From Hydrogenophilales bacterium 16-64-40 (GTDB taxonomy: Bacteria > Pseudomonadota > Gammaproteobacteria > Burkholderiales > Thiobacillaceae): DNA of 64,000 bases. The translations under genes were made by a program, and so were the position numbers. The notes under the pieces were generated by a model that had not been told where the DNA came from, did no database searches, and saw nothing but the letters and a program-made list of their open reading frames with translations. The stretch covers positions 124,001 through 188,000 of the forward strand of contig NCGX01000003.1 in assembly GCA_002256995.1 (NCBI GenBank), written 5' to 3'. This document shows, piece by piece, positions 30,236 to 49,366 of this stretch. Every line of letters starts with the position of its first letter. Position 1 is the first letter of the stretch.

Positions 30236-30288
30236 GCGTGGTTGTTGCCGCGTCAGCGGATTTACAACCACGGCCTCCTCCTTGCGGG
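30236..30288 (-). repeat. 53-bp dispersed hairpin repeat, copy 2
   Basis: The reverse complement of this stretch matches 23722-23774 closely. Its own hairpin is GTGGTTGT (30238-30245) with ACAACCAC (30264-30271), plus inner CCGC/GCGG. It lies 12 bases after the prlC stop and could act as a 3' stabiliser. Confidence 0.75.
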
Positions 30289-30865: not shown

Positions 30866-30926
30866 CGATCTCGCCGCGCCAGCCGGCGCGGCTGCCCTGT
30901 AGGATTCTTTTCACCTCCTGCGGGGT

Positions 30927-31020
30927 ACTCCGATCCACCACGGGCTCAAGCCCATGTGGAATCGTATGCCCGAAAGGACTCCGATCCACTATGGGCTGAA
31001 GCCCATGTGGAATCGTATGC
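30927..31020 (-). repeat. Tandem pair of the 51-bp palindromic element upstream of xth
   Basis: Two 43-bp copies (30927-30969 and 30978-31020; three differences) are separated by an 8-base spacer, so the repeat unit is 51 bp. Read on the minus strand each begins GCATACGA and ends GGATCGGAGT, with an 11-bp stem TCCAC-ATGGGC / GCCCAT-GTGGA around TTCA or TTGA. The minus-strand frame stays open as [18 protein letters not shown] third copy lies inside the helicase gene at 48893-48943. The distal end is 15 bases before the xth ATG. Confidence 0.9.
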
Positions 31021-31035
31021 GCTACACTGCGCGGC

Positions 31036-31809
31036 ATGAAAATTGCCGCCTGGAACGTCAACTCCCTCAAGGTCCGCCTGCCCCAGTTGCTGGACTTCCT
31101 CGCCACCCGCCAGCCCGACGCGGTGTGCCTGCAGGAAACCAAGCTCACCGACGACAATTTCCCGGTCGCCGAGTTGGCCGCGGCCGGCTACCGCGTCGCC
31201 TTCGCCGGGCAAAAAACCTATAACGGCGTCGCCCTCGTCAGCCGCGGCGAACTGACCGACGTCAGCGTCGGTATCCCGGGATACGAAGACGAGCAGAAGC
31301 GGGTCATCGCCGCCACCGTTGACGGCGTGCGAATGGTGTGCGTGTACTGCCCCAACGGACAGAGCCTCGATTCCGACAAATACCCCTACAAGCTCGCCTG
31401 GTTCGACGCGCTCACCGCCTGGCTGAAGGACGAACTGGCCCGCCATCCCAAGCTTGCCGTGCTCGGCGACTACAACGTCGCGCCGGAAGACCGCGACGTG
31501 CACGATCCCGAGGCATGGGCGGGCTGTGTGCTGGTGTCGGAGCCGGAACGCGAACGCTTCCGGAATCTATTGGCGCTGGGTCTCACGGACAGTTTCCGCC
31601 TGTTCGAACAGCCCGAAAAAACCTTCTCCTGGTGGGACTACCGCATGATGGGCTTCCGCCGCAACCACGGCCTGCGCATCGACCATATCCTGCTCTCCGC
31701 GCCGCTGGCTGCCGCCTGCACCGCCGCCAGCATCGATCGCGACATGCGCAAGCTGGAACGGCCCTCGGACCACGCGCCGGTGCTGGCGGAGATCAGCCTG
31801 CCCGCTTGA
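31036..31809 (+). CDS. xth: Exodeoxyribonuclease III
   Basis: An AP endonuclease/3'-5' exonuclease of base-excision repair, 257 residues. Motifs are [20 protein letters not shown] (metal glutamate), [11 protein letters not shown], the catalytic tail [11 protein letters not shown] and [10 protein letters not shown]. Length is normal. The palindromic tandem repeat ends just upstream and must overlap the promoter or leader, and no clear Shine-Dalgarno sequence precedes the ATG. Confidence 0.96.
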
Positions 31810-39474: not shown

Positions 39475-40752
39475 TCACCCGCGTACGTGCCCGTCGCCCA
39501 ACACGACCCACTTCTGGCTGGTCAGCCCCTCGAGCCCGACCGGGCCGCGCGCATGGATCTTGTCGGTGGAAATGCCGATCTCGGCGCCGAGGCCGTATTC
39601 GAAGCCGTCGGCAAAGCGGGTCGAGGCATTGACCACGACGCTCGCCGAATCCACCTCGCGCAGGAAGCGGCGCGCGCGGCCGTAGTCCTCGGTGACGATG
39701 GCGTCGGTGTGATGCGAGCCATGGGTGTTGATGTGGATCATTGCGGCGTCGAGGTCGTCGACCACCTTGACCGCGATGATGGGGCCGAGGTATTCCTCGG
39801 TCCAGTCGGCGTCCACGGCGGCCTTCAGCTTGTCGGCCGCGACGCCGGCGCCCCTGAGGATCGCCAGCGCTTCCGGACAGCCACGCATTTCCACGCCCTT
39901 GCCGGCCAGCATTTTACCGATCTCCGGCAGCGCTGCGGCGGCGACGCCGCGCGCCACCAGCAGCGACTCGGTGGTGTTGCAGGTGCCGTAGCGCTGGGTC
40001 TTGGCGTTCTCGACGATCTTCAGCGCCTTGGCCAGGTCGGCGCGGTCGTCCACGTAGACGTGGCAGTTGCCGTGCAGGTGCTTGATCACCGGCACCCGCG
40101 CCTCGCCGGTGATGCGCTCGATCAGACCCTTGCCGCCGCGCGGCACGATGACGTCGACGTAGTCCTTCATGGTGATGAGTTCGCCCACCGCGGCGCGGTC
40201 GGTGGTCTCGACCACCTGCACCACGGTCGCCGGCAGACCGGCGGCCTCCAGCCCTTCGCGCACGCAGGCGGCGATGGCTTGATTGGAGTGCAGCGCCTCG
40301 GAGCCGCCGCGCAGGATCGCGGCGTTGCCGGATTTGAGGCACAGGCCTGCGGCATCCGCCGTCACGTTGGGACGCGCCTCGTAAATGATGCCGATGACGC
40401 CGAGCGGCACCCGCATCTTGCCGACCTGGATGCCGGACGGGCGGTACTTGAGGCCGTCGATTTCGCCGACGGGATCAGGCAGCGCGGCGATCTGCTCCAG
40501 GCCTTCGGCCATGCCGGCGACGGTCTGGTCGGACAGTTGCAGGCGGTCGAGCAGCGCGGCGTCGAGCCCGCTGGCGCGCGCCTGCTCCATGTCGCGCGCA
40601 TTGGCTTCGAGCAGCCTGGCGGCATCGCGCCGGATCGCCGCCGCCATCGCCAGCAGCGCGTGGTTCTTCTGGTTGGTGTCGGCGCGGGCAATCGCGCGCG
40701 CGGCTTCGCGCGCCTGCTTGCCCAGCGTCTGCATGTAGCTTTTAACGTCCAT
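39475..40752 (-). CDS. proA: Gamma-glutamyl phosphate reductase
   Basis: The second enzyme of proline synthesis, reducing gamma-glutamyl phosphate with NADPH. From ATG 40752 it has 425 residues. The catalytic cysteine is in [53 protein letters not shown] and [22 protein letters not shown] are all conserved. The internal ATG was chosen because TGGAAAAC lies just upstream. An ATG at 40764 is an alternative. It overlaps the end of holA by 11 bases. Confidence 0.95.
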
Positions 40753-41775
40753 ATCGTTTTCCATTGCCTGCCGGTTCAGCCAGCGTCAGTCCCATGCGCA
40801 GCAGCGTATCCCACGGATCGCCCACCCGCTCCAGCCCCTTGGCCTGGCGGTCGACCAGTGCCAGGTCGGCCAGCGCGGCCTCGATCCGGGCCAGGTCCAG
40901 GCGCTTGAGCGCGCGTTCGATCTGCGGCGCGCGCTGCTTGTCGCGCCCCCACAGCGTCCGCATCAGGCCCGGCAGGCTGTCGCCCTGCACAAGGGCTGAT
41001 TTTAGCCTGAGCAGCAGCCCGACCGCCGACGTCACCTGCCACAGGATGGCCGGCACCGCCTCGCCCGCATCCTTGAGGTCGATCACGATCTGCGCAAAGC
41101 GCGCGCCGTCGCCGGCGTAGAGCGCATCCGCGAGGGCGTCGGCCTCCAGCCGGCTGACGTCGACCACCGCATGCTCGACATCGGCCAGCGTCACCGCCCC
41201 CGCCGGCAGCAGCAGCGCGAGCTTGTCGATTTCCTGCTGCGCCGCCAATAAATTGCCTTCGACCTGATCGGCCAGAAATTCCAGCGCGGCGCGCTCGGCG
41301 CGCAGGCCCTGTTTGGCGAGCCGGCGCTCGATCCAGCCGGGCAGCTGGGAACGGTCGAGCGGTCGCGCCTCGACCACCACGCCGGCGACTGCCAGGGTGG
41401 TGAACCAGCGGCTTTTCATGGCTTTCCAGTCCAGACCCGGCAGGCTGATCAGCGTCAGCGTATCGGCCGGCAGTTTGGCCGCATAGGTTTCCAGCGCCTT
41501 GGCGCCATCAATGCCGGGCTTGCCGGAGGGCACGCGGATTTCGGTCAGGCGGCGCTCGGCGAACAGCGAGAGGTTGTCGCTGCCGGAAAAAATGCTCTGC
41601 CAGTTGTAGCGCCCCTGCACGGTGTACACGTTGCGCTCGCTGTGTCCGGCCGCACGCGCCGCCACGCGGATGGCGTCACACGCCTCCTGTGCCCCCAGCG
41701 GCTCGTCGCCCACCACCACGTAGAGCGCAGCGAGGCCGCGCGCAAGCTGGTCAGGCAGACGATCGGCCGCGATAT

Positions 41776-41779
<4 letters not shown>
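40742..41779 (-). CDS. holA: DNA polymerase III subunit delta
   Basis: The clamp-opening wrench of the clamp loader, 345 residues. It has the AAA+-like N-terminal domain ([22 protein letters not shown]) without a working P-loop, as normal for delta, the [19 protein letters not shown] core, and the C-terminal collar helices ([23 protein letters not shown]). It lies between lptE and proA, overlapping both. The leuS-lptE-holA order is conserved in proteobacteria. Confidence 0.93.
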
Positions 41780-47144: not shown

Positions 47145-49366
47145 ATGTCTGCCCATCTGCTGGAAAACCTCAACCCCGAACAACGCGCCGCGGTGACGCT
47201 GCCGCACGAATCCGCGCTGATTCTGGCGGGCGCAGGCTCGGGCAAGACGCGCGTGCTGACCACCCGCATGGTGTGGCTGATCCAGACCGGCCAGGTGTCG
47301 CCGCTGGGCGTGCTGGCGGTGACTTTCACCAACAAGGCGGCGAAGGAAATGATGATGCGCGTCTCGGCGATGCTGCCGATCAACACGCGCGGCATGTGGG
47401 TCGGCACCTTCCATGGACTAGCCAACCGCCTGCTGCGCACGCATTATCGCGAGGCGGGGCTGCCGCAGTCGTTCCAGATCCTCGACAGCCAGGACCAGCT
47501 GTCGGCGATCAAGCGCCTGATGAAGGCGATGAACGTCGACACCGAGAAATACGAGCCAAAGAAGGTGCAGCGCTTCATCAACGGCAACAAGGAGGCCGGA
47601 CTGCGCGCGCGCGACGTCGAGGCGTTCGACGAATACTCGATTCGCATGACCGAGCTGTACGAGGCCTACGACGCACAATGCCAGCGCGAGGGGGTGGCCG
47701 ATTTCCCCGAGCTGCTGCTGCGCGCCTACGAGCTTTTGTACCGCAACGAGCCGCTCAGGCAGCATTACCAGGATCGCTTCCGCCACATCCTGATCGACGA
47801 GTTCCAGGACACCAACACGCTACAGTACCGCTGGCTCAAATTATTCGCCGGCCCGCACACGGCGCTGTTCGCGGTGGGCGACGACGACCAGTCGATCTAC
47901 GCCTTCCGCGGCGCCAACACCGCCAACATGGCCGAATTCGAGCGCGAGTTCGCCCACGGCAACGTGATCAAGCTGGAGCAGAACTACCGCAGCCACGGCC
48001 ACATCCTCACCGCCGCCAACACGCTGATCTCGCAGAACGCGCACCGCCTCGGCAAGAACCTATGGACGGCGGAAGGCGACGGCGAGCCGATCCGCGTGTT
48101 CCACGCCTACTCCGACCAGGACGAGGCGAGCTTCGTGGTCGACGAGGTACGTGCGCTCAACCGCGAGGGGATGAACCTGTCCGACATGGCGCTGTTGTAC
48201 CGCTCCAACGCGCAGTCGCGGGTACTGGAGCACGCGCTGTTCTCGGCCAGCGTGCCGTATCGGGTGTACGGCGGACTGCGCTTTTTCGAGCGCCAGGAGG
48301 TCAAGCACGCGCTGGCCTACCTGCGCCTCTTGACCAACCCGGAAGACGACGGCGCAATTTCCCCACCCGCGGCATCGGCGCGCGCACCCTGGAACAGCTG
48401 GCCGACCATGCTGCGCGCGCGGGCATGAGCCTGTGGCAGGCGGCCTGCACCAGCAGCGGCAAGGTGGCCGGCTTCGCCAAGCTGATCGAGCAAATCAAGC
48501 AGGTCACCGCCGACCTGCCGCTGGCCGAGGCGATCGACCACGTGATCGAAGCCAGCGGCCTGGCCGACTACTACCGGGCCGACAAGGAAGGCGCCGACCG
48601 CCTGGAAAACCTCAACGAACTGGTCAACGCGGCGGCCTTGTTTGCCGAGGAATCGGGTTCTTCGGTGGCCGTGGGTTCCGACCTCACGCCGGAGACCGCA
48701 GCCTCCGCCGAAGCGACCCAGCCCGAGCTGGATCGCTTTCTCGCCCACGCCGCGCTGGAAGCCGGCGAGCATCAGGCCGGCGCCGGCCACGACGCGCTGC
48801 AGCTGATGACGGTGCACGCCGCCAAGGGGCTGGAGTTTCACGCCGTTTTCATCACCGGACTGGAAGAAGGACTGTTTCCGCACGAGCAGAGCGCATACGA
48901 CTCCACACGCGCTTCAGCACGTAGTGGATCGGAGTCCTTTAGGGCGAACGAGGAAAGCGGCCTGGAGGAGGAGCGGCGGCTGATGTACGTGGCGATCACC
49001 CGCGCCCGGCGCCGCCTGTATCTGTCGCATGCGCAGTCGCGCATGCTGCACGGACAGACCCGCTACAGCCTGCCGTCGCGCTTTCTCGAGGAACTGCCGA
49101 AGCAGGTGCTGCTCGACCTCAACCGCCGCAGCGAGCCGGCCTATCCGTCAGGCGGCTACAGCGCGCCGGCGCCGGCGCCGCGCAGCCCGCAAACGGGCAA
49201 CGACACCGGTTACAAGGTCGGGCAGAGCGTCACCCATGCCAAGTTCGGCACCGGCATCATCATCGACTTCGAAGGACGCGGCGCGGACGCTCGGGTGCAG
49301 GTGAAATTCCGCGAGGTCGGCACCAAGTGGCTGGCGCTGGCCTACGCCAAGCTGGCGCCAGCCTGA
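47145..49366 (+). pseudogene. UvrD/Rep-family DNA helicase, split by a frameshifting deletion and carrying a repeat insertion
   Basis: A superfamily 1A 3'-5' helicase for repair or replication restart. The first ORF (47145-48428) holds AGAGSGKTR, FTNKAAKEM, DEFQDTN, GDDDQSIYAFRGA and QNYRS. After LTNPEDDGA (about 48355) the frame is lost: about 16 bases encoding the expected FLRVV stretch are missing. The sequence resumes in another frame as NFPTRGIGARTLEQL. The second ORF can start at ATG 48425, which overlaps the first stop as ATGA. It carries TVHAAKGLEFHAVFITGLEEGLFPH and EERRLMYVAITRAR. Between those two motifs a 51-bp palindromic repeat adds 17 residues. The gene may be a decaying pseudogene, or the halves may be coupled and work as two chains. 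Confidence 0.85.
48893..48943 (+). repeat. 51-bp palindromic element inserted in frame in the helicase gene
   Basis: It is the same element as the tandem pair at 30927-31020 (reverse orientation there), with 45 of 51 positions identical to the nearest copy plus spacer. It starts exactly at a codon and is translated as AYDSTRASARSGSESFR, the same frame that is open in the other copies. The hairpin TCCAC-ACGCGC/GCACGT-GTGGA is kept, with one compensatory pair change. Removing it restores the length of this loop seen in E. coli UvrD and Rep. Confidence 0.9.

Follow-up and report, generated by a model that had tools for sequence, protein, structure and literature searches.

The 51-bp palindromic sequence that interrupts the uvrD helicase gene of Hydrogenophilales bacterium 16-64-40 (Thiobacillaceae) is very probably one copy of a small, non-autonomous, hairpin-forming element, 51 or 54 bp long, that is dispersed in Thiobacillus and tolerated in open reading frames. 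Its copies are scattered, have exact empty sites, use open frames, covary in their stems, and form head-to-tail arrays; identical sites are patchily occupied, copies in genes survive in frame, and the unit has a long history in YhdP. Protein-tolerated palindromes are best known from the obligate intracellular Rickettsia and Wolbachia; Thiobacillus is a betaproteobacterium. As the same sites are found filled, empty, and decayed in a free-living genus of many species, it becomes possible to measure how mobile DNA adds, removes, and reshapes parts of proteins, and this turnover reaches basic genes (holA, murE-like, and kdsB-like) and poses the question of how a 51-bp hairpin is mobilised when none of the transposases tested is linked to it.

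The window, a 64,000-nt stretch of contig NCGX01000003.1, contains uvrD at positions 47,145 to 49,366 of the forward strand and, inside it on the same strand, the unit at 48,893 to 48,943, which reads GCATACGACTCC...GGAGTCCTTTAGG, encodes AYDSTRASARSGSESFR, and has an exact empty site in the orthologue of genome G027 (locus L202). The unit is codon-aligned, with FPHEQS before it and ANEESGLEEERRL after it, as the original prediction had it, and the accompanying claim that the loop without the insert has the length of the E. coli UvrD loop is borne out by the alignment of the G037 protein to E. coli UvrD (PDB 2is1), which leaves a 17-residue gap at the insert, after FPSQMSL. The view that the insertion is exactly in frame holds for the codon alignment and for the insert-bearing orthologues that have long open frames (G037, 747 aa, and G029, 822 aa, stop to stop), but not for the window itself, where a private 16-nt deletion between 48,355 and 48,356, upstream of the insert and absent from G037 and G029, shifts the insert out of the reading frame of the UvrD N-terminus in this assembly. 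The deletion may mark a real pseudogene or an assembly error, and since it breaks the host gene, it lessens the value of the window copy as proof of tolerance. A degenerate pattern allowing up to three mismatches found three sites in the window and none in 100 shuffled windows, and an Rfam search of the window returned nothing at gathering score. The two other sites form an intergenic pair on the reverse strand, at 30,970 to 31,020 (15 nt upstream of the start codon at 31,036) and at 30,917 to 30,969. The pair had been described as two tandem copies of the unit, and it does consist of two head-to-tail units, but it spans 30,917 to 31,020, and only the core is shared because the second unit has a different 3′ end (GGAGTACC).

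A typical unit starts with GCATACGA, carries TCGGAGTCC near its end, and finishes with TTTAGG (51 bp) or CCTTGTGGG (54 bp), so that the usual lengths are multiples of three, in agreement with the original prediction. Of 118 single-unit copies detected with a covariance model of seven copies, 80 had exact forms of both CATACGA and TCGGAGTCC; a separate pattern with fixed end motifs gave the spacing of the 51-bp unit in 177/184 copies, a set in which constancy of the end motifs is true by construction. The stem is internal, occupying columns 6–39 of 51, the ends of the unit are not inverted repeats, and a GTAG lies within the unit and is ATAG in many copies. The compensatory change claimed for the hairpin proved to be part of a wider covariation of the stem. 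When the seven copies behind the model were aligned with MAFFT, 98.0% of the stem was paired, four pairs changed on both sides (reached by 16 of 500 shuffles), and nine cells carried such changes (reached by none of 500); among 72 distinct sequences, whose alignment was fitted to the covariance model and therefore favours the structure, 98.5% of cells were paired and double changes occurred in 9 of 14 pairs, as high as in none of 500 shuffles. At columns 18/27 the uvrD copies have C-G (G037, G054), T-A (G029), or a C/A mismatch (the window), states that look like a compensatory path. Stem pairing was 97% in copies within genes versus 90% in others, a difference that was not significant (P 0.78). 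Of 136 unique arrays, 18 had more than one unit, and within each of these the units all pointed the same way. A terminator reading was rejected from the sequence, the hairpin being followed by GGAGTCCTTTAGG without a T-run.

Further copies were sought in this genome and its relatives and were found in both. The covariance model had 11 matches in this genome (E up to 1), and the 56 Thiobacillus genomes together gave 634 (E up to 0.01); at least one was present in 49 of them, and the count per genome ranged from 0 to 39. At an E of 0.001, 52 of 117 genomes of the family matched; outside Thiobacillus there were matches in 3/61, one each and the best with an E of 8.8e-12, so the restriction to Thiobacillus is not absolute. 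Among 369 genomes drawn from the class, the window's own was the sole match (E 1e-4). Units were also seen on contigs titled Sulfuricella, Gammaproteobacteria, Sulfuriferula, and Rhizobium (L056, L058, L062, L111), where the labels of the metagenome-assembled genomes may be wrong. Carriage by phages was rejected, viral contigs having yielded no exact pattern match to the unit in a search that divergent copies would escape.

A uvrD match was present in 51 of the 56 Thiobacillus genomes, and the orthologues read comprised 30 loci plus L025. Aligned with and without the insert, 27/31 lacked the 17 residues, which argues that these are not an old host segment; the four bearing them came from this genome, G037, G029, and G054. 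The closest relative of the window's gene, that of G027, is 97% identical over the matched region and lacks just the 17 residues. On a uvrD tree of 30 rows the presence of the insert requires four changes, at least three of them forced by well-supported branches, and these four changes imply either repeated gain or loss at one nucleotide or exchange between species. A second loop of UvrD holds a decayed unit with an open frame in G029, G003, and G037 (L201:1768-1818, L203:1768-1818, L204:2086-2136; E 2.9e-4 to 9.7e-4).

Elsewhere too, unfilled sites match the sequence obtained by joining the flanks of filled ones, and exact empty sites of 51 or 54 bp exist both in and between genes. The window itself provides one, at 41,197/41,198 on the reverse strand of a holA-like gene (40,742 to 41,779), where L092 and L130 have a 51-bp unit in frame; further pairs in genes are L148 versus L108, both in YhdP, and L006 versus L093. 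An abhydrolase gene is filled in L005 and L083 and empty in L166, with only 10 nt covered to the right of the junction. The unit sits cleanly 5′ of G, most often of GC. Of the TTTAGG-type junctions, 35 that look independent were compared: the unit was followed by G in 34 and by GC in 22; eight others had GG on the left, and 5/35 had neither GC nor GG. The 22 junctions with GC on both sides fit a 2-bp target duplication, and fit equally well a GC that is part of the unit. No longer parent element sharing the ends of the unit was present in the loci examined for it.

Genic copies were counted, and their frames recorded, in a census of six Thiobacillus genomes and the window's own. It took in 123 of 142 matches, leaving out 18 array neighbours and one partial match, and the codon score assigned 128 unique arrays to classes, one more lying at a contig edge; L242 was wrongly anchored, and rows not 51 long are off by a few bases. 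Since the codon score chose the right frame in only 368 of 552 self-tests, both flanks were required to agree. Genic arrays numbered 29 with the frame open and 2 with a stop in the stretch examined; the two flanks had different frames in 3, 7 arrays lay between genes, 55 had coding sequence on one flank, and 32 were intergenic. About one quarter of the arrays fall inside genes. One of the two arrays with a stop is the copy upstream of xthA and is not truly genic, and in the other (L325) the unit itself does not contain the stop. When the two multi-unit rows were removed from the 31 genic rows, the unit was open in the frame of its gene in 29/29 single-unit copies versus 17.0 expected from random frames (P 5.7e-8), and with one row per host site in 23/23 versus 13.3 expected (P 1.2e-6). 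Four frames are used, two of them sense and two antisense, and each yields its own peptide; the earlier expectation that every copy is open in one frame was thus correct as to openness and too narrow as to frame. With a usual length that is a multiple of three and several open frames, genic copies can add 17–18 residues and survive.

The hosts include DNA polymerase III delta (HolA, with L320 the same gene), DNA polymerase I, YhdP, an RNA methyltransferase, two P-type ATPases, a pyruvate-ferredoxin oxidoreductase, a second UvrD-family protein, and KdsB-like and MurE-like proteins, the last two backed by PDB matches (comparisons with PDB chains were sequence alignments). All 20 host proteins tried matched a Pfam family in the frame of the unit, L310 weakly (9e-6), and in nine of them a single family spans the insert; L260, perhaps in another repeat rather than a gene, and L009 were outside this set. 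In a FlgJ-like protein (L264:541-1638), three tandem units add 59 residues between its two domains.

A YhdP match was present in 53 of the 56 Thiobacillus genomes; of the 28 orthologues extracted, 16 contained the insert, in states ranging from intact to heavily changed. L362_G028 was wrongly extracted, has a very long branch, and is to be ignored, and L356 (G032), L371 (G013), and L372 (G021) were left out. The unit has persisted for a long time in this gene, decaying to all stages. It is cleanly absent from G029, which lies beside G052 and G037 with weak support, and from G000, G027, and G043 beside G003; these absences look like clean loss, with repeated gain or exchange as alternatives.

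It is unlikely, on these sequence comparisons, that the repeat is maintained chiefly as a functional RNA or DNA-binding site, for instance at xthA, rather than as a mainly selfish element. The covariation of the stem and the exactness of both end motifs in the 80/118 copies would suit such a site, as would its position at the gene at 31,036 to 31,809 of the forward strand, which from its sequence we take to be xthA (exodeoxyribonuclease III). Among the 30 best of 48 genomes with an xthA match (L373-L402), a start codon was found in 27, and a unit or remnant lay directly upstream, by eye, in 20 of these Thiobacillus loci and was absent from seven; a stricter scripted pattern was present in 16/30. 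The YhdP insert points the same way, being less diverged than its flanks in pooled nucleotide divergence (0.169 versus 0.263) and at four-fold sites (0.229 versus 0.439), with 3 of 260 flank windows of its size equally low. Its divergence was lower in 95 of 120 pairs, however, and not lower in the other 25; moreover, copy number varies from 0 to 39 between species, identical sites differ in occupancy from one relative to another, and there are in-frame copies in unrelated genes as well as decayed ones.

A second rival, quite improbable, makes the unit a member of an ordinary REP family that a RAYT (Y1 transposase) mobilises. The unit is indeed a short hairpin repeat that lies mostly outside genes, and Y1_Tnp (PF01797) matches occur in 40 of the 56 Thiobacillus genomes. 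Intragenic REPs have already been reported in free-living bacteria, including copies in DNA-repair genes, and REPs share with the unit the form of small hairpins with alternative complementary stem residues, according to PMC3733652; the unit is likewise found within replication and repair genes (UvrD, polymerase III delta, polymerase I, and the second UvrD-family protein). REPs of the GTAG/CGTC kind have a terminal GTAG or CGTC tag beside a 20–40 bp stem-loop, whereas the ends of the Thiobacillus unit are GCATACGA and TTTAGG or CCTTGTGGG, its GTAG is internal and often ATAG, and its arrays run head to tail. Nor is there a RAYT association: across the 56 genomes, Y1_Tnp counts and unit copies were not associated (Spearman 0.008, Fisher P 1.0), four genomes that are 99–100% complete (G023, G030, G053, G055) hold 11–19 copies and no Y1, and three others (G002, G014, G017) hold Y1 and no copies. 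The Y1/RAYT transposase was accordingly rejected as the mobiliser, copy number not following Y1 counts, and so was IS110 (PF02371), present in 19/56 genomes and in none of the copy-rich G003, G023, G029, G053, and G055; no mobiliser was found. There is a negligible probability that the sequence is an ancient part of the host's UvrD or a repeat arisen by chance: for all its codon alignment in uvrD, it is absent from the 27 orthologues and dispersed through the genome, and the empty sites refute this reading.

For the preferred reading, that of a non-autonomous mobile hairpin, the junctions suggest a route by which the unit might move, namely joined end to end (TTTAGG-GCATACGA) and crossing over at 2 bp (GC or GG) through a putative recombinase, which would account for the junctions and the 51-bp arrays. 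Copies landing in closed frames are presumably removed by selection, and the added protein segment was probably tolerated rather than useful at first. Slippage may account for clean loss, occurring between the short GC/GG repeats that the hairpin would bring together at its foot, and stem complementarity may be kept by selection for the hairpin or by quasi-palindrome correction. Recombination between species could underlie the patchy occupancy in uvrD and YhdP. Only tentatively do we propose the fuller model, a genus-wide mobile hairpin that would move end-joined by 2-bp crossover without Y1 or IS110 and serve as a reversible protein-loop cassette in four frames, removable or remodelled as in YhdP and the second UvrD loop.

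Rickettsia palindromic elements (RPEs), as described in PMC2229807, PMC10969869, and PMC3733652, are genus-specific palindromic repeats found between genes and in frame in unrelated conserved protein genes. By comparison of descriptions, the Thiobacillus unit is also a genus-level palindrome (49/56 Thiobacillus genomes), both intergenic and in frame in unrelated conserved protein genes with exact empty orthologues. The analogy drawn in the original prediction is thus backed by the empty sites, by survival in genes, and by the 27/31 uvrD orthologues without the insert. The unit differs in being 51 or 54 bp long, against 105–146 bp for RPEs in PMC2229807, and in using four frames, forming head-to-tail arrays, and having a free-living betaproteobacterial host. 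The enterobacterial intragenic repeats RU-1/ERIC, RU-2, and RU-3 (PMC2229807; see also PMC2759123), of 103–168 bp, are similarly non-autonomous and able to fuse in frame, but RU-1 has terminal inverted repeats and a target duplication, and the unit lacks terminal inverted repeats; this and its internal stem also set it apart from MITEs, whose terminal inverted repeats are given as 15–30 bp in PMC3733652. No description of the 51-bp unit appeared in the titles or abstracts of the literature searched, and its sequence and peptide as search terms matched only two unrelated papers, so that, within that literature, the suggestion that the family is perhaps undescribed stands. The unit reads as an undescribed element that works like RPEs and intragenic REPs and differs from them in length, tags, arrays, and the RAYT link.

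Intergenic units were repeatedly seated within other palindromes, a second Thiobacillus repeat among them. Cyanobacterial small dispersed repeats resemble the unit in this respect, being very short mobile units that enter other repeats. The window has an empty copy of the second palindromic repeat at 30,238 to 30,271 of the forward strand, and elsewhere the 51-bp unit occupies the corresponding place. This second family, GTGGTTGTTGNC-GC...ACAACCAC, often holds the unit at one position (L002, L030, L045, L067, L142), and units are also seated in repeats of the GCGAGGAGCGNAGCGACG-GCAATCCAG type (L147, L117, L070, L044), empty copies of which occur in other loci.
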